Shown here: positions 17,546 to 44,696 of the stretch, piece by piece
Layout of the letters: every line of letters begins with the position of its first letter
How positions within the stretch are numbered: the stretch's first letter is position 1
NCBI RefSeq assembly: GCF_000801105.2
Contig: NC_079516.1
Location: forward strand, 31,640,790-31,704,789
Direction: 5' to 3'
DNA: 64,000 nt
Source of the DNA: Raphanus sativus
Lineage: Eukaryota; Streptophyta; Magnoliopsida; Brassicales; Brassicaceae
The notes under the pieces: model-generated
The model's input: only the letters and a program-made list of their open reading frames with translations
What the model was told of the DNA's origin: nothing
Databases searched by the model: none
Translations under genes and position numbers: made by a program

Positions 17546-18094
17546 TGTTGGGCCCGAATATGACCCGATAACTGAATAGTGAATAATAAAAGACGATAAC
17601 AGGCCACGACAGGCCCATCACGAATTCAATATGTGAAAGGAGCTAAGCTGGAGCCGGAGGCTGAGAGCGAAGGACTTTTACCAAAGAGGTCACGGTGAAG
17701 AGGAAGCTCACATCGTAACAGAAGGAGCGCAGGACCCGGTCAAAGGGAAGCTGTTGCGGATTCCTCAATAAACGGAGAAGATCTCGGGAACCAGTTGGTG
17801 ACGATCAAGCGGGACCTGAGGCTATTTAAAGAGAAAGCAAATCAAGAAAGAAGATCGATTCAACCCATATTCCACTCGATACTCTGAAAACATTCTTATT
17901 AGTGTAACATTCTTATAATCTTTGTATTCATCAAAGATCATCTCTTGTAAACGTTCTTTTACCAGAAATCATTAATACAAATCATCATTCATTCTACAAG
18001 TTCTTACGGGATTCAACCCACGATTATCTTTCCCTAATCATTTCCTAAACTATAACCTGACCTAAAAATCAGGAGGTGAGTTTAATCCCTCACA
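17546..18094 (+). repeat. 5' LTR of D
   Basis: It runs from tgttgggcccg to aatccctcaca. A TATA-like box TATTTAAA is at 17823-17830. It is related to the H LTR, especially over the last 60 bp. Confidence 0.95.
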
Positions 18095-18096
18095 AT

Positions 18097-18113
18097 TGGC
18101 GCCGTCTGTGGGG
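18097..18113 (+). other. Primer-binding site of D
   Basis: TGGCGCCGTCTGTGGGG, two bases after the LTR. H has the same site. I cannot name the primer tRNA with confidence; it differs from the tRNA-Asp site of A, B and C. Confidence 0.75.
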
Positions 18114-18147
18114 AAGAAACAATCGAATCCCTTACTCTAACTTGAGG

Positions 18148-20793
18148 ATGAATCCTACCGATCAGACAACAAATCCGTCTGACCTTAACCTCCCGATTCA
18201 GAGCGATGGCTCACCGAACGATGGAGGCTCTATTCTCGTAACCGCGGAGCCTCGACGTGGCTACCACCGATCTGGGCAACAGCCTCCGGCTAGCGCTCGA
18301 ACGAGCCAGACTGCAACCGGAGCTAGTAACCCGAGATCATCAAGTGGAACCGCCCCCGGACTTCCAATCACCGAGAATCCTCAGCAGCAAGCCATTCCGA
18401 ATCAAACGGAGGCTCAGCTCTCTGAGATTCGTCAGATGATGATGCAATTAGTAGACAAAGCTCAGGAAAGTGAGCGTACAATGCATCAGCTAGCTGTTCG
18501 TCAGCAACGATTCGAAGAGATAACTAGATCTCTAAACGCAACAACCCAACCACCGCAACGTCAAGCTCCGGGGGTCACTTTCCGAGATCGATTGACCGAT
18601 CCCTCATTCCCCCGAGGACGTTTAGACTTTTCCCCTGACAGCACTGTTCCGGAAGGACGCGGATCTGCTTTCCAGACACCTCATACTGGGATAGCTCCCG
18701 TGTTTAACCCACCTATCACCAGTGCTATGGGAAGTAACATAGCGACAACCAGCTCCACACCCAGTCAGATTGCTGACCGGAGCACTCGCTTACCTCCCCC
18801 GCCGCCTGATTTTAGGTCTGGAGCAGGAGTATCCTTCCCATTCGGGGGCAGAACATCAGCTTCGGTTTATCTAACCAGAAGCTCAACCCCGAGTGCGGAT
18901 GGGTATCAAAGGGTAGATTCCGATAACCCAAGAGCTGATGAGCGAATTAGCCCACCAACTGCATGGGAAGATGAACCAACACGATTCCGTCAGGAACCTG
19001 CCCGTCGGGTACCTAATAGCGACCCAAATGTCCTTCCTTTAGAGGGACCTGAAGCTATCCGCATGTATATGGAACGAACTCACGCAGCTCTCCAAAAATT
19101 GGGAGCTCAAGTCCATAAGGCAACGAGTTCAGCTCCCGAAATCGATAGCTTGATTGAAGAAACCCGAGGGACTCCATTCACTGACAGAATTGCCAGTTCT
19201 TACATAAGGGATACCCGAAAAATCAGAATTCCCGAGTATGATGGGACCTCTGACCCAAAGGCCTATTTGAGAGCCTTCCGATTAGCTATCGTGAAAGCCC
19301 ACTTCACACAGGAAGAATGTGAAGCAGGTTACTGCAGGACATTCACCGAAAACTTGGTCGGAACAGCCCTTGAGTGGTTCTCTGGTCTCGAACCAGCCTC
19401 GATAGATAGTTTCGATCAATTAACTAGTGCCTTCATGAAGCAGTACTCGACCCATATCCTGAAGCAAGCCTCTGAGGCCAACCTTTGGAAGATCAGACAA
19501 GGAATGGGGGACTCACTACGAGTCTACATCGAGAAATTCAGGGCAGTAAGAACTAAGCTCTCGAATCCTAACGACCTAGTCGCCATCGAGACCCTTAGGA
19601 GAGGTCTGTGGTATAAATCGGAGTTCTGGTCGGAGCTAACACTTAATACTCCTCCAACTATCGATGATGCTCTTCATAAAGCAACCAGGTACATTACTCT
19701 GGAGGAGGAGACAGCTGCACTGGATAAACTCCACAAGAAACCTCAGAATCACTCGAAAGGTGAGTCCTCTGAGGCAAAGGGACCTCATAAAAAGGGGAAC
19801 CTCCGAAACAATCAAACTCAGGGAGAACATTCCTATGCAATCGAGGAGGACAAGGAAGAGAAACCTGTCGCCGCAGCAAACAAAACTCCCTGGTCAAAAG
19901 GCTTTGATAAAAACAAACGTTGCTCTTATCATGATCGAGAAGGGCACTCAACTGAGGAATGTTGGGACCTCCAACGACAACTGGCAGCTAAATTCGCAGC
20001 CGAAGAAATAAAGGGCGTGGACCTTAAAAAGCCACCACCTTATCAGAAAAGAGGTCCCAGAGACAACTCTCCAAAGCGCGAGAGGTCACCTGAGAAGGAG
20101 ACCGATTCACCACCTCCAGCTCCCAAGAAAAGAGTCAACATGATTCTTGGAAAACCGTCCCCTCAATCGAGCCCCGACTCGAGGGTGGACTGTATCCTTG
20201 GAGGATCAGATATATGTCAAGATTCCGTCAATTCCATTAAGAATCACGTACGGAAGGCTGCGTCTAACACTGGACCTAAGCCTCCTAACTCCGAGTCCAA
20301 TACTAAGATTTCTTTCTGGGAAAGCGAGACCTCAAACCTTGACAGACCTCACGATGATGCGTTGATTGTCACCCTGAATATCGCAGGATACGAGGTCCCT
20401 AAACTCATGATAGACACAGAAAGCTCTGTTGACCTTATTTTCTACAACACCCTAAAAGGGATGGAAATAGACGACTACGAAATTATTGGCCAAAAAGCTA
20501 ATCTCGTAGGCTTCTCCGGAGAGACAGCTACCTCATTGGGGACTATCAAGCTCCCAATCATAGCTGGCGGAATAATGAAAATGACCAACTTAGTAGTCAT
20601 CGACAGACCTTCCCCGTTCCACGCAATCTTGGGAAGACCCTGGATTCACAAAATGAAGGCAGTAGCCTCGACCTATCATCAATGTGTGAAGTTCCCAACA
20701 CCTGAAGGGATAACTACCGTACACGGTAGCCAGAAGATATCCAGGATCTGCTACTTGGGAGGATTCGAAATCCTCAAAAAGTCCCCCCAATAG
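18148..20793 (+). CDS. gag-pro: Gag-protease of element D
   Basis: Capsid and protease polyprotein. I chose the ATG at 18148 (MNPTDQTT); the in-frame ATG at 18076 is inside the LTR. A long Pro/Ser/Thr-rich N-terminus is followed by the gag domain (KAYLRAFRLA, ALEWFSGLE, LRRGLWYKS), then a knuckle of form CX2HX4HX4C (CSYHDREGHSTEEC) near 19921. The protease region has LMIDTESSVDLIFYN where retropepsins have DTG or DSG; the Gly to Glu change in the catalytic triad probably inactivates it. LGRPWIHKMKA follows as expected. The ORF stops at UAG 20791-20793 in a leaky context, in frame with pol. Confidence 0.9.
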   Translation: MNPTDQTTNPSDLNLPIQSDGSPNDGGSILVTAEPRRGYHRSGQQPPASARTSQTATGASNPRSSSGTAPGLPITENPQQQAIPNQTEAQLSEIRQMMMQLVDKAQESERTMHQLAVRQQRFEEITRSLNATTQPPQRQAPGVTFRDRLTDPSFPRGRLDFSPDSTVPEGRGSAFQTPHTGIAPVFNPPITSAMGSNIATTSSTPSQIADRSTRLPPPPPDFRSGAGVSFPFGGRTSASVYLTRSSTPSADGYQRVDSDNPRADERISPPTAWEDEPTRFRQEPARRVPNSDPNVLPLEGPEAIRMYMERTHAALQKLGAQVHKATSSAPEIDSLIEETRGTPFTDRIASSYIRDTRKIRIPEYDGTSDPKAYLRAFRLAIVKAHFTQEECEAGYCRTFTENLVGTALEWFSGLEPASIDSFDQLTSAFMKQYSTHILKQASEANLWKIRQGMGDSLRVYIEKFRAVRTKLSNPNDLVAIETLRRGLWYKSEFWSELTLNTPPTIDDALHKATRYITLEEETAALDKLHKKPQNHSKGESSEAKGPHKKGNLRNNQTQGEHSYAIEEDKEEKPVAAANKTPWSKGFDKNKRCSYHDREGHSTEECWDLQRQLAAKFAAEEIKGVDLKKPPPYQKRGPRDNSPKRERSPEKETDSPPPAPKKRVNMILGKPSPQSSPDSRVDCILGGSDICQDSVNSIKNHVRKAASNTGPKPPNSESNTKISFWESETSNLDRPHDDALIVTLNIAGYEVPKLMIDTESSVDLIFYNTLKGMEIDDYEIIGQKANLVGFSGETATSLGTIKLPIIAGGIMKMTNLVVIDRPSPFHAILGRPWIHKMKAVASTYHQCVKFPTPEGITTVHGSQKISRICYLGGFEILKKSPQ

Positions 20794-20802
20794 CAATTAC
20801 AG
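20791..20802 (+). promoter_or_regulatory. Candidate stop-codon readthrough signal, D
   Basis: UAG-CAA-UUA-CAG, preceded by CAA. It fits the UAG-CARYYA consensus known from tobamoviruses. The codons on both sides are in the same frame and pol follows in that frame. The same 12 bases occur at this boundary in H and G. Confidence 0.65.
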
Positions 20803-20838
20803 ATCCAGGAGGGTCGCGAAATGCAACAAAATATTTGA

Positions 20839-23800
20839 GGTCCTCCCAAGAACCTCACCAAAAAAGTTTGCATTGACGACTCAAATCCCGAAAGACAGGT
20901 GAGCATCGGATCTGATCTACCTCTTGAGACAAAAAAGGAGCTCATTGACTTCCTGAAAAGCAATGTCAAAACCTTTGCATGGTCCACCAATGACATGAAA
21001 GGCATAGATCCGAACTTCACCACCCATAAACTAAAAGTAGACCCCACTTTCAAACCGATCAAACAAAAGCGTCGCAAGCTAGGCCTCGAAAAGGCTCAAG
21101 CTGTTAACGACGAAGTTGACCGACTTACGAAAGCTGGATCCATTCGAGAGGTACACTACCCTGACTGGTTAGCTAACACGGTAGTTGTAAAGAAGAAAAA
21201 CGGGAAATGGAGAATCTGTGTAGACTTCACCGACCTAAACAAGGCTTGTCCAAAAGACAGCTTCCCGTTACCTCACATCGACCGCCTGGTTGAAGCAACA
21301 GCTGGCCATCGACTCCTATCCTTCATGGATGCCTTCTCAGGATACAACCAAATCATGATGGATCCTGAGGACCAGGAGAAAACTGCATTCATAACCGAAC
21401 GAGGAACCTATTGTTACAAGGTTATGCCATTCGGATTAAAGAACGCAGGAGCTACCTATCATAGGTTAGTAAATAAGATGTTTGCTGGGCAACTTGGAAA
21501 AACCATGGAGGTCTATATTGACGATATACTAGTCAAATCCTCAACTGGAGAAGACCATATCTCCCACTTAAGGGAATGCTTCGATATCCTTAATAAGTAC
21601 GATATGAAGCTCAATCCCACTAAATGTACCTTCGGGGTACCCTCAGGCGAGTTCCTAAGCTACCTCGTAACCGAAAGAGGCATTGAAGCCAACCCGCAGC
21701 AGATAGCAACCTTCCTAGAAATGCCGTCACCTAAGACAACCAGAGAGGTACAGAGATTGACTGGACGAATCGCAGCATTAAATCGATTCATATCCAAGTC
21801 CACCGATAAGTGCCTCCCATTCTACAAGCTTCTAAGAAATAATAAGAAGTTCTTATGGGACGAGAAATGTGAGGAAGCCTTCAAACAATTGAAATCTTAC
21901 CTCTCCAAACCTCCGATCCTATCCAAACCTGTAGTAGGAGAGCCACTGTACATGTACCTCGCCGTATCGACTGCTGCAGTTAGCGGCGTGCTGGTACGAG
22001 AGGAACAAAACGAACAAAGACCTGTCTATTACACCAGCAAGAGTTTGATAGACGCCGAAACAAGGTACCCTGCAATGGAAAAATTAGCGCTGGCAGTCGT
22101 AACAGCTGCCAGAAAATTACGACCTTACTTCCAATCGCACTCAATCGTCGTAATGACCTCACAACCATTACGAATGATATTGCACAGCCCTAGCCAGTCA
22201 GGGCGATTGGCCAAATGGGCCATAGAGCTCAGTGAATACGACATCGAGTATAGACCTCGAGCAGCAGCGAAGGCTCAGGTCCTTGCCGACTTTATCATTG
22301 AGCTAGCATCCGAGCAATTAGACTTCGAAATGGAATCTCCGAAGTGGAGCCTGTATGTCGACGGAGCCTCATCAAAACAGGGCTCCGGTGTCGGTCTAAG
22401 GCTGACTTCTTCAGCAGGGGAAACCATCGAGCAGTCCTATAGGCTCGAATTCAGCGCCTCAAACAACGAAGCTGAATATGAAGCACTAATCGCAGGATTG
22501 AAACTCGCCATAAGCCTCGGAATTCGAGAGCTAAACGCTTATAGTGATTCACAGCTAGTAGCTAGCCAGTTTCACGGAGAATACGAAACGAGGGACGAAA
22601 GAATGGGGGCATATCTCGAAGTCGTCCAGAACCTCACTAGGCAGTTTGAAAAATTCGAGCTAACAAGGATCCCACGAGGAGAGAACTCCTCAGCAGATGC
22701 ATTGGCTGCTTTAGCCTCCACATCAGACCCCCTCGTAAAACGAATCATACCCGTAGAAGGAATCGAAAAACCAAGCATCGACATAGCTACTAAAGCTGAG
22801 ATAGACAGCAAGCTAAAAGAGCAACCCGAAGGTACCTGCCCTGAAACGGTAGCTACCCAAGTTTTCACGACATTCTGGTTCCCAAAAGCCAAAATACGTA
22901 GCTCTAAAAAGCATACCTCCGGGAACACAATCCAAAACACGGAAGGTATTCCCCGAAATTCAGACTCCTTGGAGCCTAATCTCACGAATACCTCTGGGGG
23001 CACCAACTCAGACCCATTCGTCTGCAGAGTTAAAACCAGAAGCCGTTCAGCCCTCAAAAATTCCTCTGGGAGCACCATCCAGACCCCGGAGAGTAATGAA
23101 GAAATTGGAGGTATTCCTCGGAATTTAGACCCCCTGGAGCCCAATCCTACGAATACCTCCGGGGGCACCACGACACCAGGTCCCGAACAGGAACCTCCCT
23201 CGTCTCTTCATAACAAAGTTGTAGGGAGAGAGGATTGGAGAATTCCAATCATGCAATACATCCTGGAAGGAAAGAGTCCACCCAATAAATGGGAGGCTCG
23301 GAAGCTCAAAGCATTAAGCGCGAGATACTGCATAATCGAGTCTGTCCTCCACAAACGAAGCGTTTCCGGACCTTACCTAAAATGTGTCCATGGCCTCGTT
23401 GCTATGAGACTCATGAAGGAAATGCACGACGGCTCCTGCGGGAACCACTCTGGAGGAAGAGCTCTGGCCATCAGAATCAAAAGACAGGGCTATTTCTGGC
23501 CTACCATTATTGCAGACTGCGAGGTCTACTCCTCTTCATGCGACAAGTGCCAGAGGCATGCACCGATTATACACCAACCTGCGGAGAAGCTATCCAACAT
23601 ATCTGCCCCTTACCCATTTATGAGGTGGTCCATAGACATCGTAGGACCACTAGTAGCGTCAGGAAGTGGAAAGAAGAAGCTACGCTTCCTCTTAGTCCTA
23701 ACAGACTACTTCACGAAATGGATAGAGGCTGAAGCTTTCCAACAGGTAACCAGAGTCGAGGTCGAACGATTCGTGTGGAAAGAAATCGTGTGTAGACACG

Positions 23801-24489
23801 GCATCCCATATGAAATCGTAACCGACAATGGAGGACAGTTAATATCCCACGACTTCAAAATATTTTGTGACAAATGGAATATTCGCCTGACTTTCTCAAC
23901 ACCTCGACGACCTCAAGGAAACGGCCAGGCTGAGGCTGCTAATAAATTAGTATTAGCAAACCTCAAGAAACGCCTCGGAACCCAGAAGGAACTCTGGTCA
24001 GAAAAGTTACTTGAAGTACTTTGGGCATGTCGAACCACCCCACGAAAGGCTACAGAAGAAACCCCTTTCTCCTTAGCCTACGGGATGGAAGCTGTCGTCC
24101 CAGCTGAAACCATTGCTGGTAGCCTCCGCCGGGAACTCTGTACATCCGATCCCGCAGCTAATGATCAGCTCCTAACAGACAGCCTCGATCTAATCGAAGA
24201 AAGACGAGACCGAGCTCTGATTCGCATTCAAAACTATCAGCAAGCAATGGTACGACAGTACAACTCCAAAGTCAGGCCCCGACAGTTCGCTGTAGGTGAC
24301 CTAGTACTTAGGAAAGTTTTCGAAGGCACCAATGAACCAGATGCTGGAAAATTAGGAACCAACTGGGAAGGTCCATATCAGATCATCCATGTGGTACGAC
24401 CTGGCGTTTACAAGCTCCGAAAGGTGCGAACCGGGGTACCTGAAATCAGATCGTGGAACGCCACGAATCTTAAGAGATATTATCATTAG
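20839..24489 (+). CDS. pol: Pol of element D (RT, two RNase H domains, integrase)
   Basis: Reverse transcriptase, RNase H and integrase, which copy and insert the element. The frame is open from the codon after a TGA (20836-20838); numbering from the first ATG (20899) gives 1,196 residues. RT has LLSFMDAFSGYNQ and VYIDDILVKS (about 203-212). The first RNase H is degenerate (YLAVSTAAVSGVL lacks the usual Asp). A second, archaeal-type RNase H follows (LYVDGASS near 485, then EAEYEALI, SDSQLV, NSSADALA). After a linker with a 54-residue duplication, integrase has HHCC (about 840-887) and Asp913, Asp976, Glu1012, a DD35E spacing. It ends KRYYH. The catalytic motifs look intact. The TGA is probably a CGA decay, since H has CGA there. 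Confidence 0.93.
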   Translation, partial: GPPKNLTKKVCIDDSNPERQVSIGSDLPLETKKELIDFLKSNVKTFAWSTNDMKGIDPNFTTHKLKVDPTFKPIKQKRRKLGLEKAQAVNDEVDRLTKAGSIREVHYPDWLANTVVVKKKNGKWRICVDFTDLNKACPKDSFPLPHIDRLVEATAGHRLLSFMDAFSGYNQIMMDPEDQEKTAFITERGTYCYKVMPFGLKNAGATYHRLVNKMFAGQLGKTMEVYIDDILVKSSTGEDHISHLRECFDILNKYDMKLNPTKCTFGVPSGEFLSYLVTERGIEANPQQIATFLEMPSPKTTREVQRLTGRIAALNRFISKSTDKCLPFYKLLRNNKKFLWDEKCEEAFKQLKSYLSKPPILSKPVVGEPLYMYLAVSTAAVSGVLVREEQNEQRPVYYTSKSLIDAETRYPAMEKLALAVVTAARKLRPYFQSHSIVVMTSQPLRMILHSPSQSGRLAKWAIELSEYDIEYRPRAAAKAQVLADFIIELASEQLDFEMESPKWSLYVDGASSKQGSGVGLRLTSSAGETIEQSYRLEFSASNNEAEYEALIAGLKLAISLGIRELNAYSDSQLVASQFHGEYETRDERMGAYLEVVQNLTRQFEKFELTRIPRGENSSADALAALASTSDPLVKRIIPVEGIEKPSIDIATKAEIDSKLKEQPEGTCPETVATQVFTTFWFPKAKIRSSKKHTSGNTIQNTEGIPRNSDSLEPNLTNTSGGTNSDPFVCRVKTRSRSALKNSSGSTIQTPESNEEIGGIPRNLDPLEPNPTNTSGGTTTPGPEQEPPSSLHNKVVGREDWRIPIMQYILEGKSPPNKWEARKLKALSARYCIIESVLHKRSVSGPYLKCVHGLVAMRLMKEMHDGSCGNHSGGRALAIRIKRQGYFWPTIIADCEVYSSSCDKCQRHAPIIHQPAEKLSNISAPYPFMRWSIDIVGPLVASGSGKKKLRFLLVLTDYFTKWIEAEAFQQVTRVEVERFVWKEIVCRHGIPYEIVTDNGGQLISHDFKIFCDKWNIRLTFSTPRRPQGNGQAEAANKLVLANLKKRLGTQKELWSEKLLEVLWACRTTPRKATEETPFSLAYGMEAVVPAETIAGSLRRELCTSDPAANDQLLTDSLDLIEERRDRALIRIQNYQQAMVRQYNSKVRPRQFAVGDLVLRKVFEGTNEPDAGKLGTNWEGPYQIIHVVRPGVYKLRKVRTGVPEIRSWNATNLKRYYH
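22900..23170 (+). repeat. 162-bp tandem duplication in the pol linker of D
   Basis: The peptide GIPRN.D.LEPN.TNTSGGT occurs twice, about 162 bp apart (near 22945 and 23107), together with (H/N)(T/S)SG(N/S)TIQ. It lies between the archaeal-type RNase H and integrase, keeps the frame, and H lacks most of it. Confidence 0.75.
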
Positions 24490-25637
24490 GTACCTAAAAT
24501 TCCCGAACTACGTTGGGCTTGATCCCTTGACTGGGTACGTAGGCAACTCCGTCATGAGTGCAGCCCCAACCTCATTTCAACACTTAGTTCACCACAACCA
24601 AAGGGGGAATATGTCTGATTAAAATCACATAGCTCAAGCAGCAAGTGTATAACCATTATAATACAGCAATTGTATGACTATTATGATACCAAGTATCCAA
24701 TTATAAATAAAGCAATTATCCTCGATGTCTCAATTCTTTAACAACACAGGTCCCTACAAACACGGACCTAGGGTCCTAAAACCCTTTGGATCAGCTCAGG
24801 TCTCCATGAACCTGAACCTAAAGGTCTCAAAATCCTTCAAACAAAGTCAAGCTTGATAAGCTTAAACCTAATGTCTTAAAATCCTTAGAAATTACCAAGG
24901 TCTTAAAATCCTTCAAACAAAGTCAGGTCTCCAATGACCTCAACCTAAGGTCTTAAAATCCTTAGAAACCATCAAGGTCTTAAAATCCTTCGAACAAGGT
25001 CAGGTCACCTCGGACCTAAACCTAGAATCTCAAAATCCTCAACAAAATACAAAGGTCTTAAAGCCCTTATCAAATTTTGAAAGGTCTTAAAATCCTAAGC
25101 AAGTTCCAATGGGTCTTGAAATCCCGTAAACAAATTTAGGTTCCCGAGAACCCCCACCTAAGGTACCTGAGTTAAACTCAGGTTCCTAAAAACCTTAAGC
25201 TAATCTCGATACTTCAGGAACCCCTCTTAAGGGGCCAAAAACGATCCAAGTCTCCGAGACTTATTATGAAATCAGAGATCTAATTCGGCGGATTCACTAA
25301 ACCTCTTAATTAGTAACCGAAGCACATTCCCTATCAAAACTCTTGACCAAATTCGAGTTGATCAAAAAACACGATTAAGTCAAATCGAAAAAAGCTTGAC
25401 ACGAAACTGAAAACCAAGTTTTGATAGATAAAAGGTTTAAAGGCCTCCTCAGGCCAACAAAGGTTCAAAAAAACTTAACGTAAACAAAGGTTTAAAAGCC
25501 TCCTCAGGCTATAAGTCTTAGAACTAAAAGAAACAAAAGCCCATTGGGCATCCTAGAAACACATATAAGAGCCTCAGCTCTTAAACCTCCTTGTCATCCG
25601 AGCTCTTCTCAGCTCCCTTGCCAACCGGATCATCCTC
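24490..25637. repeat. Spacer repeat array of D between pol and the antisense gene
   Basis: About ten scattered copies of a core like ggtcttaaaatccttc occur between 24770 and 25150, with related aggtc/cctcaggc motifs after it. No gene. It sits where the pol transcript and the antisense transcript converge. H has the equivalent array on the other strand (31320-31720). Confidence 0.7.
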
Positions 25638-28037
25638 CTAATCAGGAACCTCTTCCTCCATCTCCTTGTCGCCATCTCCCGGGGCGGCTTCGACTGGGGC
25701 TGAGCAAGAACTCATCAATCCCAAATTAGAACTGAACTCTCCAGAAAAGGAGAGATTAAACATATTAACCTCAAAAGTACCTGAGCTCTCAGAGAGTTGA
25801 GGAAGAGGGAGCTTGCTGATCGAAAAGTCCGAGACCTGAGCCTTCTCATACGCAGAAACAGCTTCTGGCATCATAGCCACCAAACGAGCGTACTCATCCT
25901 CAGCACTCTTAATCTCGCCGTCCAGCATGTCTTTCAGGAGCTCAGTGTTGGCTTGAATCTCTTGAGCATGAACCAAGGGATCAACTTCATCTTTCTTCTT
26001 GGAGAACTTCTCCTTGACAGCAACCAGAACTTTGTTATAGGCATCAGCTACCTCCCTCTTTCCTTTCTTGACGGCTAGCTTGACCTCAGCTTCTTTGTTC
26101 TTCTGGATGCTCTGAGATGAAGCAATCAGCTCTTTGACTTGGTACTCGGCTATCTTCCGAGCAGAATCCAACTCCCCAATCTTCATAGTCTTCACCTGGA
26201 TGTCAATCAACTGGCTCTCGATCGTCCCTTGCTGAGCATCAGCCTTGGAGCCAAGTCTCTTGACCTCAGCTTGGAGTTCCGAGATCAGAGCCCGAGTCTG
26301 ATTGAGCTCAGTCTTGGTAGCCTTGACCAGATCTGTGACCTGAGCTAATTCCTCAGCGCTGGGGGCATTGTGCACGGAGTCCTCGAACTTGAACTGAGCC
26401 ATGTTAATAGCGCCAGCCAGCTACAAAAACAAAAACAACGATTTAGTGAACATCTTCCAAAAGGAATTAAGCTAAAAAGTTGAAATAGAATTCATACCTG
26501 ACCCATGTGATGGGCAATATCAACGTACTCATCCTTGTTCGTGAGATTGGAGTTCGAGGGGAGGGAACACCCGGTTCTCTTCATATGCCGCATCAGAGTA
26601 GCCAAACCCCACGAATCATCCAAAACCGATCCGGGCTTCGAATGAGCAAAGTTCCAGCCAACGGTTCCCCCTCTAGAAGAGGAGGAGGAAGACCTCGAAG
26701 GTCTGTCAACTTGGTCAGTTCGGGACCTCTTGCTCCTCGGAGGCTCAAATTCTAGAGGATCCCTCGCCATTTGAGGATTAGCTTCCGTCACCGGAACCTC
26801 GGAGGGGAGACCAACTTCCTGAACTCTGGTCTCCGAAGGACCAACGTCTTTAGCAGGAGCGGAGCCTCCCTCATCGAGGACTTCCTTCACGGAGTCAAGA
26901 AAGGATCCTCCTTGGGTCTTATCGCTTCCTCGAGAGGAGCTGGCAGCCTTGGTCGATCTACCCCTGGAACGGAACGAAGGCTGAATAAGCATCTTCTGTG
27001 ACTGGGTCTTTTCAGAGGTACTGGCTCCAGACGAGACTTCAAGTACCGAATCACCGTCGGAAACTGAATCATGAAAAGAATTCGTTAATCTCACAAGAAA
27101 AGATTCGAATAATGAAAGCTAGAAATCAATAATGGAAGGTTACCTTCTAAACCAGCAACCGTCACTGAATCAGGAAAAGATGAATTGTATCGATCAGGGA
27201 ACCTGGCCGATCCGACTCTCGTGGTGGTGTAAGCTGCCCAGTTATTGGGGCTGTGCTGCAGCTTTCTATGGAGAGCTCTGGTAAGTTTACCGGACAACTT
27301 GATAGGATCCTCAATCTCTGCGAAAGAATCAAAAGCAATTAGCACATCACAATAAGCAAAATAAATATGCAAACGTCCCTAAAATCCTATCCAGAGATGT
27401 CAGACCAAGAGGTCCTGAGGTATCGGCCTACAGGAACCGTCGAAGGGTCAATCTTGACATAAAAGTACTTCTTCCGCCAGTCATCATCACTGGCCGTAAA
27501 CTTGAAGACGCCTAGCCCTGGACGACCGGGGAGGTAGTAGGTACCGCTTCCACAATCCTTGGAAGTACTCTCCTTTATCGAGAAGAGACTCATCAGCTCG
27601 GTCAAACCCACAATAACTCCTTCCTCCTTGGCCCTAGTGATGAATCCGTTTATCACTCGGATAACCGAGGGACAAAGTTGGGGAAGGGCCAGATGATAGT
27701 GATCCAGGAGGTCTAGCAAGAGGGTGGGGAGAGGGAACCTAAGATGGCACTTAGAGATGTACTTCTCATGAACACAGAACCAACCCTCCGGAACGGTTTC
27801 AGGGGTTTCGTCCTCGTTACAAGCCCTAGCTAGGTCACTCTTGCCGTGGGCTGGAACAATAAGATTGGCGACGTCTTGGCTCTTTAAGAGCGACGGAAAG
27901 TGAGGTCCGGAGGAGGCGCTCTTGCCACCTTTCTTCTTCATCCTCTTGACTCTTGCCCCGATCGAGTCTTTGACCTTCATAAGACGAGCACCAGAAGTGG
28001 AGATTTGAATTGCGCCGGAGCTTTCTTTTTTACTCAT
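25638..28037 (-). CDS. Antisense extra gene of D, four exons
   Basis: It is read opposite to the retroelement. My exon model: 28037-27392, 27317-27144, 27063-26498, 26420-25638; introns of 74, 80 and 77 nt. The lengths sum to 2,169 nt, an exact frame of 722 codons plus stop. Introns 2 (GTAACC..TTCAG) and 3 (GTATGA..TTGTAG) are textbook. Intron 1 has a good acceptor (TTTCGCAG) but the donor reads GA, so it may be damaged. The N-terminal domain (FPLPTLLLDLLDHYHLALPQLCP, in pieces; ending KKYFYVKI) is homologous to that in L1, K, E and M. A Ser-rich, basic middle and a coiled-coil C-terminus follow. It resembles PF04195-type plant transposon proteins. Function unknown. Confidence 0.75.
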
Positions 28038-28261
28038 TGTAAGTAAAGGGAAAAGAGAAGAGAGGTGAAAAGGGAAGAATCGGGTTGAGATGAGCAAGAA
28101 TGGATTCTCTAGAGAACTTAGGGATGAAGATCGAATTCGAAACAGAGATATAAAAAAAAAAAGAAAAAACGTGCAGTAAAATAAAGGAAGAGGGAGAAGT
28201 TACCTTGGAAACCGTCGGAGGCGTGGAGGAAGTGGAGAGACATGTAGTTAATACTCGCAGC

Positions 28262-28267
28262 TTTATA
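28262..28267 (-). promoter_or_regulatory. TATA box of the D antisense gene
   Basis: TATAAA on the minus strand, 225 bp upstream of the ATG at 28037. The longer leader may contain an intron beginning AAG/GTAACT near 28203. It lies inside D, just before its 3' LTR, so the antisense gene appears to have its own promoter. Confidence 0.5.
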
Positions 28268-28465
28268 TCCCATCATGTCTCGAAAATCGGAAACTACATT
28301 TCAAACTCCTCTTAATCTAAACCGTCGATTTGATCGAAGGGAATTTACAGCCGTTCGATCAGATAGGAATATACATGGTTGAGATAGCTAGTAATCATGA
28401 TCTGAACAAGAAAATCTAGGTTGGGCGGCTAGGTCTAGCTCCCGCGAATAACGAAACCTAATCTC

Positions 28466-28481
28466 GAGAGCTGGGGACAAC
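28466..28481 (+). other. Polypurine tract of D
   Basis: gagagctggggacaac, directly before the 3' LTR. It is similar in form to the tracts of H and E. Confidence 0.75.
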
Positions 28482-29030
28482 TGTTGGGCCCGAATATGGC
28501 CAGATAGCTGAATAGTGAATAATAAAAGACGATAACAGGCCACGACAGGCCCATTACGAATTCAATATGTGAAAGGAGCTAAGCTGGAGCCGGAGGCTGA
28601 GAGCTAAGGACTTTTACCAAAGAGGTCACAGTGAAGAGGAAGCTCACATCGTAACAGAAGGAGCGCAGGACCCGGTCAAAGGGAAGCTGTTGCGGATTCC
28701 TCAATAAACAGAGAAGATCTCGGGAACCAGTTGGTGACGATCAAGCGGGACCTGAGGCTATTTAAAGAGAAAGCAAATCAAGAAAGAAGATCGATTCAAC
28801 CCATATTCCACTCGATACTCTGAAAACATTCTTATTATTGTAACATTCTTATAATCTTTGTATTCATCAAAGATCATCTCTTGTAAACGTTCTTTTACCA
28901 GAAATCATTAATACAAATCATCATTCATTCTACAAGTTCTTACGGGATTCACCCCACGATTATCTTTCCCTAATCCTTTCCTAAACTATAACATGACCTA
29001 AAAATCAGGAGGTGAGTTTAATCCCTCACA
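28482..29030 (+). repeat. 3' LTR of D
   Basis: 549 bp, 11 substitutions from the 5' LTR. The TATA-like TATTTAAA is at 28759-28766. It is followed by the second AGGCC. Confidence 0.95.
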
Positions 29031-29035
29031 AGGCC

Positions 29036-29890: not shown

Positions 29891-30457
29891 TGTGAGGGAT
29901 TAAACTCACCTCCTGATTTTAGGTCAGGTTTATAGTTTAGAAAAGGATTAGGAAAAGATAATCGTGGGCTGAATCCCGTAAGAACTTGTAGAATGAATGA
30001 TGATTTTATTAATGATTTTTGGTAAGAAATGTTTACAAGTGATGTTTATAATGTTTACAACGAAAGAATTAAATGATTGAGAGCTTGTATGTAAAAATGG
30101 GTTCCAATCCCTTTTTCTTGATTGATTTTCTCTTTAAATAGCCCCAGGTTCCGTCAGTTGCTACCAACAGGTTCCCGAGATCTCCTCCGTGATTTGAGGG
30201 ATTTGTAACAGCTTCCCTTTGACCGGGTCCTGCGCCTATTTATTTGTCCACGAGCTACCTCTTTGACCGGGTCCTGCGCCTGTTTACTTGTCAACGAGCT
30301 GCCTCTTTTCCTTGACCTCTCTGATGAACATCTCCAGCTCACAGCCTCCGGATCTGACTTAGCTGTTTTGAAGATTGAATTCATGATGGGCTTTTTTCGG
30401 CCCGTTATCATTTCTCATTGTCTATCACTAGCTAGGGGGTCATATTTGGGCCCAACA
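29891..30457 (-). repeat. 3' LTR of H (left copy)
   Basis: 567 bp, tgtgaggg..gggcccaaca on the plus strand. It contains an internal near-duplication of ctctttgaccgggtcctgcg. The purine tract (gaaagctgggggcaac on the minus strand) lies just right of it at 30458-30473. Confidence 0.95.
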
Positions 30458-30571
30458 GTTGCCCCCAGCTTTCGAGATAAGATTCCTTATCTCGGAAGCT
30501 AGACCAAGCCGCCGAGCATCAATCTTTTTGTTGAGATCTCGAGCAACAGTTATCTTTATTGAAGATTTCCT

Positions 30572-30865
30572 TTGCTTAATCTGATGGCTACGATTGCGTA
30601 TGAAAAGGCACAAGTATCCGACTTCTCGGCCAGCAAGCTTCCCATTCCTCAATTCTCAGAGAGTTCAGGTACTTTCGAGATTAACATGTTTAATCTATCC
30701 TTTTCCGGAGAGTATGGTTCTAACTTAGGTTTGGTGGGTTCTTACTCAGCCCCAGTCGAAGCCGCCTCTGGAGGTAGCGACAAGGAGATGGAGGAGGAGG
30801 CTCCTGAGGAGGAAGATCCAGCTGGTAAGGGAGCTGAGAAGAGCTCAGATGACAAGGAAGTTTAG
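30572..30865 (+). pseudogene. Remnant of the antisense gene in H
   Basis: It encodes AYEKAQVSDFS..KLP, NMFNLSFSGE and an acidic tail, matching the C-terminal part of the D antisense protein. The upstream exons and the promoter are absent. The strand is opposite to H, as expected. About 2 kb has been deleted relative to D. Confidence 0.8.
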
Positions 30866-31936
30866 GAGCTGAGGCTCTTTCATGTTTTCTTAGGATTTCC
30901 GCCCAATGGGCTTTGATTTCTTTTGTTTTAAGACTTATAGCCTGAGGAGGCTTTTAAACCTTTGTTTCTGTTAAGGTCTCTTGAACCTTTGTCGGCCTGA
31001 GGAGGCCTTTAAACCTTTTATCTATCAAGACTTGGTTTTCAGTTTTATTTTAAGTTTTTTTCGATTTGACTTAGTCATTTTTGGATGAACTCGAATTTGG
31101 TTTAGAGTTTCGATAGAGACTATGCTTTGGTTACTAATTAAGAGGTTTAGTGAATCCTCCGAATTAGGTCCCTGATTTAGCGGTAAGTCTTGGAGACTTG
31201 GATCGTTTTTGGCCCCTTAAGAGGGGTTCCTGGAGTATCGAGGTTAGCTTAAGGTTTTTAGGAACCTGAGTTCAACTCGGACACCTTAGGTGGGGGTTCT
31301 TGGGAACCTGAATTCGTTTGTGGGATTTTAAGACCCGTTGAGACTTGCTTAGGATTTTAAGACCAATTGAGATTTGATAAGGATTTTAAGACCTTTGAAA
31401 TTTGATGAGGATTTTAAGACCTTGGAGATTTGATAAGGATTTTAAGACCTTGGAGATTTGATAAGGATTTTAAGACCTTGGAGATTTGATAAGGATTTTA
31501 AGACCTTAGGTCCAGGTTCGTTGAGACCTGAGTTTGTTGGAAGGATTTTAAGACCTTCGAGATTACTAAGGATTTTAAGACCTTAGGTTCAGGTTGACGG
31601 AGACCTGAATTTGTTTGAAGGGTTTTAAGACCTTAGGTTCAGGTTCATTGAGACCTGAATTTGTTCGAAGGATTTTAAGACCTTAGGTTCAGGTTCATTG
31701 AGACCTGAATTTGTTAAAAAGTCAAGGTATCGAAGATAATTGTTTTGATGATAATAGGATACATGGTATCACAATAATCTTACAATCGATGTTTGGGCTA
31801 TATGTTCTCAAACATATGCCCCCTTTCGCCATGGTGTAAATAGTGTTAAAATGAGATTGGGGTTGCACTCATAACACAATTGCCTACGTACCCAGTCAAG
31901 GGGTCAAGCCTAACGTAATTCGAGGAATTTAAGTAC
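30866..31936. repeat. Spacer repeat array of H
   Basis: Between 31320 and 31720 there are a dozen or more copies of ggattttaagacctt, several in a clean 28-bp tandem with ggagatttgataa. It is the reverse-strand equivalent of the D array at 24770-25150. No gene. Confidence 0.8.
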
Positions 31937-34900
31937 CTAATGATAGTATTTCTTCTGATTTGTGGCATCGCACGATCTGATTTCGGGTACTCCGGTTCGT
32001 ACCTTCAGGAGCTTATAGACGCCAGGTCGTACCACGTGGATAATCCGGTAAGGACCTTCCCAATTGGTCTCTAGTTTCCCAGCATCTGGTTTCTTGGTTC
32101 CTTCGAAAACCTTCCTAAGTACTAGGTCACCTACAACGAATTGTCGAGACCTGACTTTGGAATTGTAATGTCGGGCCATTGCTTGCTGATAGTTTTAAAT
32201 GCGAAGCAAGACTCGGTCTCATCGTTCCTCGATTAAGTCGAGGCTATCTGATAAGAGCTAGTCATTAGCTTCGGGATCAGACGTACAGAGCTCCCATCAG
32301 AGTCTCCCAGTGGAGGTTTCCGCCGGAACGACAGTTTTCATCTCGTAAGCTAAAGAGAAAGGGGTTTCCTCTGTAGCCTTTCTTGGGGTGGTTCGACATG
32401 CCCAAAGTACTTCATGTATCTTTTCAGACCAGGTTTTCTTGTTGGTTCTGAGGCATTTCTTGAGGTTTGCTAATATTGACTTATTAGCAGCCTTCATCTG
32501 ACCGTTACCTTGAGGTCGTCGAGGTGTTGAGAAGGTAAGGCGGATATTCCAGTTGTCGCAAAATGCTTTGAAGTCGCGAGAAATGAACTGTCCTCCAATG
32601 TCGGTTACGATCTCATACGGGACGTCGTGGCGGCAGACAATGTCTTTCCACACAAATCCTTCGACTTCGAATCTAGTTATCTGTTGGAAAGCTTCAGCCT
32701 CTATCCACTTTGTGAAGTAGTCTGTCAAGACCAAGAGGAAGCGTAGGTTCTGCCTTCCCCTTCCTGACGTATGAGTGGTCCTACAATGTCCATGGACCAC
32801 CTCATGAACGGAGCGGATATTGAGGATAGTTTTTCCGCATGCTGATGTATAATCGGTGCATGCCTTTGGCATTTATCACATGAAGAGGAGTAAACCTCGC
32901 AGTCAGCGATCATGGTGGGCCATAAATAGCCCTGTCTTTTGATTCGGATAGCTAGAGCTCTGCCCCCAGAGTGGTTTCCACAGGAGCCGTCGTGCATTTC
33001 TTTCATAAGATTGATAGCATCGAGGCCATGGACGCATTTTAGGTAAGGTCCGGAAATGCTTCGTTTATGGAGGGCTGACTCGATTATGCAAAATCTTGCG
33101 CTTAATGCTTTGAGTTTTCGGGCCTCCCACTTATTGGGGGGGGGGATCTTACCCTCCAAGATGTACTTCATGATTGGTATTCTCCAATCCTCTCTCCCAA
33201 TGATTTTGTCATGAAGAGATGAGGGCGGTTCTTGTTCAGGTCCCTGAGTGTCGTGACCTGATGTCTTATTGCCCCCGGAGATATTGATCGGATTAGGCTC
33301 AAGGAGTCTGAATTCTGAGGAATATCTCCAGTTCTGGTGTTGTTCTCCGGAGTCTAGGTCATTTCTTCGGATGCGCTTTCAAAAGCAGAACGACTCCTGG
33401 TCCTGGCTGCATAGACAGGTGAATCCGAGGTCTGGATCTTGCCCCCGGAGGTATGCTTTTTAAAGCTACGAATTCTGGTTTTTGGGAACCAGTACGTTGT
33501 AAGAACTAGGGTTGCTACCGTCTGGGGGTAGCTACCTTCCGTTTGCTCTTTCGGCTTGCTATCGATCTCAGCTTTGGTAGCTATGTCGATACTTGGCTTT
33601 TCGATTCCCTCTACGGGAATGATCCGTTTTACGAGGGGATCTGATGTTGACGCTAGAGCAGCCAGCGCGTCTGCTGAGGAGTTCTCTCCTCGTGGGATCC
33701 TCGTTAGTTCAAATCTATTGAACTGCTTAGTGAGGTTCCGGACAACTTCTAGGTATGCCCCCATTCTTTCGTCCCTTGTTTCATACTCGCCGTGGAATTG
33801 GCTAGCTACTAGCTGTGAATCACTATAAGCGTTCAGCTCTCGAATTCCGAGGCTTAGGGCGAGTTTTAATCCTGCAATTAATGCTTCGTATTCAGCCTCG
33901 TTATTAGAAGTGCTGAATCCGAGCCTGTAGGATTGTTGGATGGTTTCTCCAGCTGAGGAGGTCAGCCTTAGACCGACGCCGGAACCTTGTCTTGGCGAGG
34001 CTCGTCAATGTACAGACTCCACTTCGGAGCTTCCGTTTCCAAGTCTAGTTGTTCGGAAGCTAGCTCAATTATGAAATCGGCAAGGACCTGAGCTTTTGCT
34101 GTTGCTCGAGGTCTATTCTCGATATCGTATTCACTGAGCTCTATTGCCCATTTAGCTAATCGTCATGATTGGCTAGGGCTGTGCAAAATTGTTCGCAATG
34201 GTTGTGAAGTCATTACGACGATTGAGTGCGATTGGAAATAAGGTCACAATTTTCTGGCAGCTGTTACGACAGCTAGAGCTAGTTTTTCCATAGTAGGGTA
34301 TCTAGTTTCGGCGTCTATCAGACTCTTGCTGGTATAATAGACAGGTCTTTGTTCGTTTTGCTCTTCTTGTACCAGCACACCACTAACTGCAGCGGTTGAT
34401 ACGGCGAGGTAAAGATATAGCGGTTTTCCCATACTGGTTTAACCAGGATCGGAGGTTCGGAGAAGTAAGCTTTCAATTGTTTGAAGGTTTCCTCGCACTT
34501 TTCGTCCCATAAGAACTTCTTATTATTTTTTAGAAGTTTATAGAATGGGAGGCACTTATCGGTGGACCTGGATATGAATCGATTTAATGCTGCGATTCGT
34601 CCAGTCAATCTCTGTACCTCTCTGGTTGTCTTAGGTGACGGCATTTACAGAAAGGTAGCTATCTGTTTCGGGTTGGCTTCCATGCCTCTTTCGGTTACGA
34701 GGTAGCCCAGAAACTCGCTTGAAGGTACCCCGAAGGTGCGCTTAGCAGGGTTGAGCTTCATATCGTATTTGTTGAGGATATCGAAGCATTCCTTAGGTGA
34801 GAAATGTGGTTTTCTCCAATTGAGGATTTGACTAGCATATCATCAATATAGACCTCCATGGTTTTCCCGAGCTGGCCAGCGAACATTTTATTCACTAGCC

Positions 34901-35465
34901 TTTGATAGGTAGCTGCTGCATTTTTTAAATCGAATGGCATGACCTTATAGCAATAGGTCCCTCATTCAGTTATGAATGCGGTTTTCTCTTGATCGTCGAG
35001 ATCCATCATGATTTGATTGTACCCTGAAAAGGCATCCATGAAGGACAGGAGCTGGTGGCCAGCAGTGGCCTCGACCAAACGATCGATGTGAGGTAACGGG
35101 AAGCTGTCTTTGGGACAAGCTTTATTTAGGTCGGTGAAATCTACGCAGATTCTCCATTTCCCGTTCTTCTTTTTTACAACTACTGGATTAGCTAGCCAGT
35201 CTGGGTAATGGACCTCACGAATGGACCAAGCTTTCGTAAGTCGGTCAACCTCGTCGTTAACAGCTTGAGCCTTTTCTAGGCCTAGCTTGCGACGCTTTTG
35301 TTTGATCGGTTTGAAAGTGGGGTCTACATTAAGCTTGTGAGTAGTAACGTCGGCGTTTATACCCTTCATGTCACTGGTGGTCCATGCAAAGGTTCCGACG
35401 TTGCTTTTTAGAAAGTCGATGAGCTCCTTCTTAGTCTCGAGAGGTAGCTCGAATCCGATACTCAC
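31937..35465 (-). pseudogene. pol: Pol of H, heavily broken
   Basis: From right to left it shows RT (35465-34962, then 34940-34758 with VYIDDMLVKS), degenerate RNase H (34644-34244), archaeal-type RNase H (around 33354-34030), integrase HHCC (33171-32725), core (32872-32297) and C-terminus (32179-31937). At least six frame breaks or stops separate these blocks. In the core the expected catalytic Glu is Lys ([10 protein letters not shown], against GNGQAEAANK in D), and TDNGGQ has become TDIGGQ. This copy cannot make an active polymerase or integrase, although its LTRs say it moved recently. Confidence 0.9.
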
Positions 35466-35560
35466 TTGCTTTTAGGATTTGAGTCGTCGATACTAACTTG
35501 CTCGGTGAGGTTCTTAGGGGGACCTCGAATATTCTGTTGTATCTCACGACCCTCCTGGAT

Positions 35561-35572
35561 CTGTAATTGCTA
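35561..35572 (-). promoter_or_regulatory. Candidate stop-codon readthrough signal, H
   Basis: On the minus strand UAG-CAA-UUA-CAG (UAG at 35572-35570), preceded by CAA, in the same place as in D. Downstream, H has CGA where D has the extra TGA. Confidence 0.65.
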
Positions 35573-37993
35573 TTGGGGTGATTCTTTGAGAATTTCGAAT
35601 CCTCCCTGGTAACAGATCCTGGAGATCTTTTGGTTACCATGCACGGTAGATCTCCCTTCAGGTGTCGGGAATTTCACACATTGGTGATAAGTTGAAGCTA
35701 CTGTTTCATCTTATGGATCCAAGGTCTTCCTAGGATCGCGTGAAACGGGGAAGGTCTGTCGATGACTACGAAATTCATCATTTTCATGATTCCGCCAGCT
35801 ATAGTTAGGAGCTTAATAGTTCCCAATGAGGTAGCTGTTTCTTCGGAAAAGCCTATGAGGCTAGCTTTCTGGTCGACGATTTCGTACCCATCTATTTCAG
35901 GAGACCTTTCTCGTTTCAGGAGACCTTTCTCGTTTCGGTGAGGTATCTCTGGGACCTCTTTTCGGGTAGGGCTGTGGTTTCTTGAGGTCCAAGCCCTTTA
36001 TTTCTCTGGCAGCAAATTTAACTGCCAGTTGTCGTTGGAGGTCCCAACATTTCTCGGTTGCGTGCCCTTTCCGATCATGGTAAGAGCAATGTTTGTTCTC
36101 ATCATGTCCTTTTTACCAAGGGGTTTTATTTGCTGCGGCGACAGGTTTTCCTTCCTTATCTTCCTAGATTGCATAGGAGTGTTCCCCCTGGGTCTGATTA
36201 TTTCGAGAGTTCCTCTTTTTATGAGGTCCTCTTGCTTCCGAGGTTTCGTTTTTCGAATGACTGGGATTTTTTGTGGAGTTTATCCAGTGCAGCTGTTTCC
36301 TCTTCCAGGTTAACATATTTGGAGGCTCTATGAAGAGCATCGTCGATAGTTGGGGGATGATTGAGCGTTAGCTCCGACCAAAGTTCTGATTTATACCAGA
36401 GACCTCTCCTGAGAGCCTCGATGGCAACTAGATCATTGGGGTTCGAGAGCTTAGTTCTTACTTCTCTGAATTTTTTGATGTAGGCTCGTAGCGAGTCTCT
36501 CACTCTTTGTTTAATTTTCCAGAGGTCAGCCTCGGATGCTTGCTTTTAGGATGTGAGTCGAGTATTGCTTCATGAAGGCATTACTTAACTGGTCGAAACT
36601 GTCTATCGAATTTGGTTCAAGACCAGAGAACCATTTGAGGGCTGTTCCGACCAGGTTTTCGGCGAATGTCCTGCAATAACCTGCATCACATTCTTCTTTC
36701 GTGAAGTGAGCCTTCACGATAGCTAGCCGGAAGGCTCTTAGGTAGGCCTTCGGGTCCAAGGTCCCGTTGTATTCGGGGATCTTAATTTTTCGGGTATCTC
36801 TTACGTAAGAGCTGGCAATTCTGTCAGTGAAAGGACTTCCACAGGTATCCTCAATCAAGCTCTCGATTTCGGGAGCTGAGCTCGTTGCCTTGTGGACTTG
36901 AGCTCCCAATTTTTGGAGAGCTGCGTGAGTTCGCTCCATATATCTGCGAACAGCCTCAGGTCCCTCTAAAGGAAGGACAGTCGGGTCATCATTAGGTACC
37001 TGACGGACAGGTCCCTGATGAAATCGTGTTCGATCATTCTCCCAGTCGCTTGGTGGGCTGTCTTACCCACCAGCCCTTGGGTTATTTTGACGAGTCGGGT
37101 TTGTGTGGCGAGCTGAAGGATCAGCATCCGTCCTTTCATCCGGGTTCGTGTTTAGGTTTCTGGCCTGAAACGCCGGAGCTAATGTTCTGCCCCCGGACGG
37201 ATTGGATACTCCTTCTCCCAACCTAATGCTAGGTGGTGGAGGAGGTAAGCGAGCACTTCGACCAGTAACCTGATCGGATAAAGAGCTAGTTGATGCTAGG
37301 TTGCTTCCCATAGCGCTGGTGAGGGGTGGACTAAACACAGGCGATGTCCTATCACGAGGCGTTTGGAAAGCAGGTCCCTGTTCTCCTGAACCGGTGTTAT
37401 CAAGAGAAAAGTCTAGATGTCCTCGAGGGAACGAGGGGTCAGTTATTCGATCCCGGAAGGTAACTCCCGAGCCCTGACGTTGCGGTGGTTGGGTTGTTGC
37501 GGTTAGAGATCTAGTGACCTCTTCGAATCGTTGCTGCCGAGCGGCTAGCTGTTGCATTGTACGCTCACCTTCTTGAGCTTTTTCTACCAGCTGCATCATC
37601 ATGCGACAGATCTCAGAGAGCTAAGCCTTCGTCTGGTTCGGAGCAGGTTGGTGCTGAGGGGTAACGAGGGCTGGGAGCCCTGGATCGATCCCACTGGAGG
37701 TTCTCGTGTTGGCTGCTCCAGCACTGTTCATCGAGATACTGTTCATCGAGATACTGTTCATCGAGATACTGTTCATCCGAGTACTGTTCATCCGAGTACT
37801 GTTCATCCGAGTACTGTTCACCCGAGTACTGTTCATCCGAGTACTGTTCATCGAGATACTGTTCATCGAGATACTGTTCATCGAGATACTGTTCATCGAG
37901 ATACTGTTCTTCCAGTACTGTTCATCCGAGTACTGTTCATCGGGATACTGTTCATCGGTTAGATGAATTTGTTGTCTGATCGACTGGATTCAT
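35573..37993 (-). pseudogene. gag-pro: Gag-protease of H, heavily broken
   Basis: The start at 37993 (MNPVDQTTNSS) matches D, but a TGA appears after 13 codons at the edge of the 15-bp repeat array. Recognisable blocks follow: 37602-37063 (VTFRDRITDPSFPRG), 36939-36526 (KAYLRAFRLA, GTALKWFSGLE), 36503-36219 (LRRGLWYKSELW), and a decayed knuckle and protease region at about 36100-35640. Confidence 0.88.
37731..37965. repeat. 15-bp minisatellite in the gag leader of H
   Basis: About 15-16 units of ctgttcatcNgagNa. Two unit types occur in blocks: cgagata (3), ccgagta (5, one variant), cgagata (4), then mixed units including one of 14 bp. On the minus strand most units read Met-Asn-Ser-(Ile/Thr)-(Ser/Arg). 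D has no such array at the same place. Confidence 0.92.
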
Positions 37994-38029
37994 CCTTAAG
38001 TTGGAGTAAGGGATTCCATTGTTTCTTCT

Positions 38030-38044
38030 CCACAGACGGCGCCA
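38030..38044 (-). other. Primer-binding site of H
   Basis: TGGCGCCGTCTGTGG on the minus strand, two bases inside the 5' LTR. It is identical to that of D. Confidence 0.75.
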
Positions 38045-38046
38045 AT

Positions 38047-38613: not shown

Positions 38614-38618
38614 GTCCA

Positions 38619-40802: not shown

Positions 40803-40874
40803 TAAAAAGCTTCGGGAGTTGGCACGAGAAATGGCAAGATTCGGGATTAAGGAGACGTTACACGAAGATGAGAG

Positions 40875-40884
40875 TATATATATA
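40875..40884 (-). promoter_or_regulatory. TATA box of the K antisense gene
   Basis: TATATATATA, 73-82 bp upstream of the ATG at 40802. M has the same box, spacing and flanking ACTCTC/GTCTTCG sequence. Confidence 0.6.
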
Positions 40885-43363: not shown

Positions 43364-43368
43364 TGTAC

Positions 43369-44629: not shown

Positions 44630-44631
44630 GT

Positions 44632-44647
44632 TTGGCGCTAGAAGGAG
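44632..44647 (+). other. Primer-binding site of E
   Basis: TGGCGCTAGAAGGAGG, two bases after the LTR. It is a third primer type in this window. I cannot name the tRNA with confidence. Confidence 0.7.
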
Positions 44648-44696
44648 GTTGATACACGGATTTATCTTTCTCGCAACTACGCACGCCCAGTTAAGC

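Follow-up and report, generated by a model that had tools for sequence, protein, structure and literature searches.

Antisense open reading frames (ORFs) for TRP28 are typical of Retand elements, in which they were reported for 97% of the clusters (abstract) or for all but two of 63 (text), and they are near universal in recently active elements (PMC11963269). This survey tallied TRP28 and Smc separately, with 57 antisense ORFs for the former and 11 domains for the latter (Vicient, 2025; PMC11963269). The extra ORFs of Tat elements also include, in the same clade, a different domain, namely the plant mobile domain of Ogre, according to passages of Neumann et al. (2019; PMC6317226). In maize, Grande carries the antisense gene23, which, as described in passages of a review (PMC7264820), has its own promoter upstream and encodes a nuclear protein; it resembles the gene analyzed here in its antisense orientation, a likeness by description only. 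A private promoter, which an earlier reading of the present DNA from the sequence alone (the sequence-only reading) had considered seemingly new, was thus already reported. The same review called in 2020, in one of these passages, for the examination of spliced antisense transcripts. The word "intron" is absent from the main text of PMC11963269 and from PMC7264820, and no description of introns in an antisense TRP28 gene was found in the open-licence literature of PubMed Central, outside of which one may exist. The backward TRP28 gene is already known, whereas its conserved introns seem not to have received a previous description.

Here, we analyze such a gene in a stretch of 64,000 nucleotides of Raphanus sativus DNA (the window). 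The explanation that we favor, with moderate confidence, is that it is a TRP28 antisense accessory gene of a Tat/Retand Ty3/gypsy element that is multi-exon in Brassicaceae and the spliced mRNA of which probably encodes a nuclear regulator.

Results

A four-exon antisense gene in a Tat-clade retrotransposon

Element D, the host of the gene (Table 1), is bounded by LTRs at about 17546–18095 and 28482–29031, which are 98.0% identical (11 of 551 positions differ), and the five-base duplication AGGCC flanks it on both sides. The 5′ LTR is followed by a PBS-like sequence, TTGGCGCCGTCTGTGG, and the 3′ LTR is preceded by a purine stretch. The plus strand contains a gag ORF of 905 aa and a pol ORF of 1196 aa, both free of stops. 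In pol, RT is followed by RNase H, by a second RNase H (RVT_3) and by integrase, with RVT_3 at 488–605 between RT_RNaseH (348–447) and the integrase parts (837–1005). Ogre and Retand share this order, with the second, archaeal-type RNase H before the integrase (passages of PMC6317226), and the presence of the second RNase H marks element D as a Tat/Retand member of Ty3/gypsy. The long region between pol and the 3′ LTR with an antisense ORF, which is characteristic of Retand, is also present: it extends from 24490 to 28480, with the gene on the minus strand, and its length of about 3,990 bp is inside the published range of 2,933–6,566 (PMC11963269). Like the Retand TRP28 ORFs (PMC11963269), the gene is antisense between pol and the 3′ LTR, contains a TRP28 domain, and is accompanied by tandem repeats after pol (3.1 copies of 77 bp at 24821–25062, before the 3′ LTR). 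Unlike in that survey, which used ORF Finder and recorded separate ORFs (PMC11963269), TRP28 is exon 1 of four in D. The gene is located just inside the 3′ LTR, opposite uninterrupted gag and pol. A host gene was considered as well and ruled out, because the gene sits within an element bearing LTRs and a target duplication.

The four exons join to 722 codons and a stop without interruption, so that the frame of 723 codons given in the sequence-only reading is exact. Intron 1 lacks a GT donor in D: it begins with GATAGG and ends with CAG, and an in-frame stop (27387–27389) is located right behind the donor. A candidate alternative donor is a GC 12 codons upstream (GTAG|GC), which would maintain the frame and yield VPV|EIEDP, as in P0029 and P0033. 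Retention of intron 1 in D would yield a TRP28-only protein; the unspliced readings of seven relatives stop there too. The eight candidate introns of the copies in the window are 62–82 nt long, with 40–51% T and 27–40% GC, versus only 24–31% T in eight measured exons. A segment within exon 4 (25700–25780) is missing from the proteins P0027, P0031, P0032, P0056 and P0057, and such relatives include "isoform X2" names; it is a possible regulated intron, and may be spliced alternatively. The basic stretch in exon 3 has what we take to be the character of a nuclear signal.

Table 1. Positions of the retrotransposons, antisense genes and associated features within the window
Feature	Position	Strand	Remarks
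Element D	17546..29031	+	Tat-clade (Retand-like) LTR retrotransposon; assigned by LTRs, target duplication and domain order
Exon 1 (D)	27392..28037	-	basic N-terminus, Transposase_28/TRP28 domain, WRKKYFYVKI motif
Intron 1 (D)	27318..27391	-	GA-AG in this copy, phase 1; the corresponding introns of E, K, M and L1 are GT-AG
Exon 2 (D)	27144..27317	-	alignable with matching exon of family E
Intron 2 (D)	27064..27143	-	GT-AG, phase 1
Exon 3 (D)	26498..27063	-	low-complexity linker with basic PPRSKRSRTD stretch
Intron 3 (D)	26421..26497	-	GT-AG, phase 0
Exon 4 (D)	25638..26420	-	DUF1633 match
Optional segment (D)	25700..25780	-	in-frame GT-AG, 81 nt, within exon 4
TATA-like box (D)	28261..28269	-	GATATAAAG, about 225-230 nt upstream of ATG; sequence match only
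Element E2	29891..38615	-	close relative of D; LTRs differ at 2/569 (99.6% identical); duplication TGGAC
Element E	43368..51222	+	LTRs 98.1% identical; duplication TGTAC; gag present
Family E antisense gene	48262..49843	-	N-terminal part broken; TATA-like CTATAAAG near 49840
Exons of E	exon 1 to 49043, exon 2 48961-48558, exon 3 from 48495	-	
Copy K	40079..40884	-	exon 1 runs to 40161, followed by intron 40160-40079; TATA-like box near 40884
Copy M	63134..64000	+	exon 1 runs to 63872, followed by intron 63873-63950; truncated by the window end
Copy L1	1298..2332	-	open frame of exon 1 extends to 1551; most probable acceptor at 1470, followed by a short open stretch

Domains and predicted structure

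The sequence-only reading had named PF04195 and the plant mobile domain families as targets for searches with the N-terminal domain. PF04195 (Transposase_28) matched D exon 1 with an E of 6.9e-5 and 23.4 bits, below the curated cut-off of 26.2, and exceeded this cut-off in the relative P0012 (26.4 bits); L1 (17.8 bits) and K (20.4 bits) remained below it. The ORF of E had no PF04195 match, although E aligns with D by profile. For copy M, the ORF scanned (63182–63853) was on the strand opposite its gene. The plant mobile domain PF10536 was found neither in six E-type relatives and one K/L1-type relative (P0070, P0084, P0096, P0078, P0111, P0138 and P0065), which gave 0 families in Pfam at an E of up to 0.01, nor among the matches that Pfam gave for the ORFs of D, E, K and L1. 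Some source records of E-type proteins carry a plant-mobile-domain name.

At the other end of the protein, PF07794 (DUF1633) matched D exon 4 with an E of 1.5e-7 and 30.4 bits, above the cut-off of 26.4. The region of P0012 matching exon 4 is predicted to form one long helix (503–676, about 170 residues); the full-length P0012 model, with a mean pLDDT of 42 and poor outside the C-terminal helix, was used for this helix only. The predicted structure of the TRP28 core has a pLDDT of 90 or more in 119 of 216 residues, and no significant match to it was detected in the PDB, in viral models (Foldseek) or in a VIA second look. Because the structure searches gave no significant match, no function is claimed from the fold; binding of the antisense protein to DNA would follow from a published prediction, without a fold match. 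Neither D exons 1, 3 and 4 nor P0012 had a bZIP match in Pfam, and no relative was found in the viral contigs scanned with P0001.

Some gene models of Raphanus and Brassica join the exons

Exon 1 as the query retrieved 8 proteins. The spliced D protein retrieved 53, and the names of all 53 point to Raphanus or Brassica. Many of the 53 are called "At3g60930, chloroplastic-like" or "meiosis-specific protein ASY2-like" in public databases. These host-protein names look like a misnaming of a transposon gene; a link to ASY2, considered possible because of the names, receives no evidence from passages on ASY2 in two papers.

The junctions in the relatives are those of gene predictions and were judged from the protein sequences, and the counts for D refer to 51 relatives, since two of the 53 were left out, P0060 as a chimera and P0061 as divergent. 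Junction 1 of D was crossed exactly in 16 of the 51, as checked by eye. These are 14 proteins from Raphanus (the eleven proteins P0011, P0012, P0013, P0015, P0017, P0018, P0019, P0021, P0022, P0046 and P0055, as well as P0036, P0043 and P0045), one from B. napus (P0027) and one from B. carinata (P0035). A script had scored 19 of the 51; the difference is due to P0010, P0014 and P0024, which take another path and apparently bypass the stop via another short intron. Altogether, 35 of the 51 are without the exact junction 1 of D, and in many of these exon 1 is missing or differently modelled; P0016, P0025, P0029 and P0033 join from farther upstream, and P0009, P0020 and P0023 from still farther. 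Such variant paths would be expected if some copies, like D, had lost the usual donor. Junction 2 was continuous in 26 and junction 3 in 41 of the 51 (script counts, partly checked by eye). Close pairs of spliced and unspliced readings exist, for example P0004 (...TNPSG) versus P0027 (...TNPS|EIEDPP) and P0005 (...FDPSG) versus P0035 (...FDPS|DIEDPP). Public protein databases already contain models joining the exons.

When E, K and L1 were used for a profile search, 128 proteins were retrieved; the named ones are from Brassica, plus one from Raphanus. Among the best 120 of these 128 matches, junction 1 of E was continuous in 50 according to the script, 40 of which, P0073 among them, were confirmed by eye; this check covered all script positives except P0080, P0102, P0146, P0166 and P0173, and script and eye differed for P0081, P0087, P0090, P0095 and P0118. 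Junction 2 of E was continuous in 41 of the same 120 (script, partly checked by eye). P0071, P0077, P0087, P0089, P0093 and P0121, mostly contig-derived proteins, run on past junction 1 of E as if the intron was unspliced. Retention of E intron 1 would add 27 residues, similar to the insert of 25 residues in P0071; P0078 has 25 extra residues at junction 2, again as a retained intron would give.

Three families with a corresponding intron

The copies K and M are 78% identical at the DNA level, LTR sequence is common to L1, K and M, and L1 is a diverged relative. Therefore, what had been counted as five independent copies of the gene represents three families (D; E; K/M/L1). In addition, K, E and M are decayed, with stops or frameshifts in exon 1: copy M has an in-frame stop within exon 1, and in copy K the frame is broken in exon 1 and the exons past the first junction are degraded. 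The orientation opposite to gag-pol, postulated for all copies, could be verified in D and E; in K, L1 and M, all that is visible by eye next to the gene is an LTR-like edge.

A phase-1 G|A junction is also present in E at 49043/48961, in K at 40161/40078, in M at 63872/63951 and in L1 at 1551/1470; for L1 it had not been placed earlier, and the exons past it are short. The donors follow the RY/F.F motif and read GTAAGA (E), GTAAGT (K), GTAGGA (M) and GTATTC (L1), and AG comes after the acceptor. The proposal of a phase-1 intron in all five copies is thus backed by the recurrence of the junction, and weakened by the GA donor of D and by E intron 1 (48962–49042). The latter is 81 nt long, stop-free and in frame, and the ORF at 48546–49481 is open across it, so that E reads on unspliced and splicing is not needed there.

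The homology of the N-terminal domain together with the intron applies in full to D and E, which align over both exons flanking the junction (hhalign 97.8%, 176 columns). In profile comparisons, K/L1 scored 94.0% with E and 75.5% with D, on the exon-1 side only, and hence the intron correspondence of K, M and L1 rests on exon 1 and on the distance to the motif. In a chance test with 2000 shuffles each, which covered E, K and L1 (D has no GT, and M runs into the window end), a nearby phase-1 GT-AG intron with an equally long open frame arose 6 times for E, 62 times for K and 127 times for L1. The result for E speaks for the downstream frame and not for splicing, since its intron is stop-free, and K and L1 are weak as single copies. 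The case is therefore carried by the common intron position and by the independent gene models.

The elements around these genes differ in what they retained. In element E, a match to the pol of D was sought and none was found, and the antisense gene was kept; apparently, E is a non-autonomous element with gag and the antisense gene. E2 lacks the stretch matching D 25855–28398, that is, nearly the whole antisense gene and the upstream region, and its gag-pol is broken. It is a recent insertion that probably moved in trans. Because E2 moved recently without it, the antisense gene is dispensable in cis, and because E2 lost the gene and E keeps it without a match to the pol of D, the product, if needed at all, can be provided in trans. 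The N-terminal region of E2 gag contains a 15-bp tandem array at 37723–37957 (15.7 copies, whole codons long). Elsewhere in the window, a fragment at 60655–62316 comprises gag and the beginning of pol, which are 24% and 54% identical to D, respectively, and ends close to the point at which LTR sequence of the family of M starts, and a 419-aa ORF at 55948–57207 matched no Pfam family above the cut-off.

Purifying selection on the coding frame

The values of dN/dS are pairwise and between old lineages. For exon 1 of K and M (130 codons), dS was 0.82 and dN 0.080, resulting in a dN/dS of 0.097 (bootstrap 0.045–0.175), and third positions hold 47 of the 68 differences. For D and the exon-4 remnant of E2 (74 codons), dN/dS was 0.137 (bootstrap 0.049–0.313). 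In the K-M controls, the two other frames of the strand of the gene gave 8.0 and 1.1, and two frames of the opposite strand, one of which is stop-free, gave 1.6. The third opposite-strand frame gave 0.124, yet contains nine stop-bearing codon pairs; its low value is due to the coincidence of its third positions with those of the gene. As K and M themselves are now broken, selection acted on their ancestors. The sequence-only reading had stated that selection maintained coding, splicing and promoter: both ratios agree with this for coding, splicing is backed by the corresponding intron in three families, and the promoter showed no extra conservation.

Promoter candidates

The TATA-like sequence ATATAAAG of D, near 28265, is inside the internal region and outside the LTR. 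K and M have a TATA-like TATATATA upstream of the first ATG. The boxes of E, K and M are likewise within the element and outside the LTR, and that of L1 overlaps the ATG. The idea that the gene has its own TATA box is consistent with these sequence matches; in K and M, the identity between TATA and ATG (68 of 88 positions) is not above that of the upstream stretch (323 of 402).

Discussion

The basis of the favored view is the coding frame, the purifying selection, the corresponding intron position and the domain make-up. According to this view, RNA polymerase II would initiate within the internal region, next to the 3′ LTR, and transcribe antisense to pol. The host spliceosome would then join the TRP28 exon to the exons for a linker that is basic and disordered and for a long coiled coil, and the resulting protein of ~700 aa would enter the nucleus and act on the DNA, chromatin or RNA of the element, regulating its cycle in trans. 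HTLV-1 HBZ is an antisense, spliced, nuclear accessory protein with a C-terminal helix and a bZIP, the promoter of which is in the 3′ LTR. The D product is probably a nuclear coiled-coil accessory protein that acts on DNA or chromatin, in a manner analogous to HBZ. HBZ, which is named in PMC11963269, is unrelated and only works alike: the TATA-like box of D is inside the element, and no bZIP was found. As the introns are opposite the genomic RNA strand and cannot be spliced out during replication, new copies keep the intron-bearing gene. The earlier argument that an antisense intron survives the passage through sense RNA is sound in principle; it is the reverse of the logic of retrotransposition reporters (passages of PMC12786077).

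The introns could be real and the main product nevertheless an unspliced, TRP28-only protein of about 232 aa, with the downstream exons confined to rare or other isoforms. Seven of the eight exon-1 matches (P0001–P0007) indeed terminate at ...SG, exactly the donor point, D has the same stop, and the published survey finds TRP28 in single ORFs (PMC11963269). However, six of these seven proteins are contig-derived and, without splicing, would have to stop at this point, exon 4 is constrained (dN/dS 0.137), exons 2–4 are retained in the full-length models, and no stop lies immediately at the donor of E, K, M or L1. We therefore consider a TRP28-only main product rather unlikely.

The copies could also be decayed relics of a gene that once worked, none of those present in this genome being expressed, so that the conserved intron reflects ancestry only. 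The GA donor of D, the broken copies K, E and M and the loss of the gene from E2 would fit. Against this stand the 722 open codons of D beside uninterrupted gag and pol, and the 11 of 53 relatives with lengths of 700–762 aa, and this explanation appears distinctly unlikely. That the antisense RNA itself works by pairing with genomic RNA to tune silencing, with coding secondary, has been raised for antisense ORFs (passages of PMC7264820), and antisense RNAs counteract Ty1 (passages of PMC12786077), but the amino-acid conservation and the third-position bias (47/68) call for a protein and make it quite improbable.

Returning to the favored explanation, a spliced gene for a nuclear regulator, its origin may be considered. 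Only antisense introns persist in an element that replicates via RNA, and thus the introns could be a fossil of capture. Tentatively, a complete eukaryotic gene may have been captured backwards as genomic DNA, with introns predating the family split, and may have become a nuclear regulator with a novel fold; we regard this scenario as possible though doubtful. If it is true, the origin would be traceable via a host gene whose introns are at identical positions, and the intron positions are a marker for the origin of the gene.

In D, the TRP28 and coiled-coil parts are exons of one gene, and therefore the antisense TRP28 and Smc ORFs that were published separately may be exons of one gene as well. 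The intron structure fits a genome annotation that counts these genes as host genes under misleading names. Its conservation suggests that ORF-based surveys see exons only, and it points to where the transcript should be sought.
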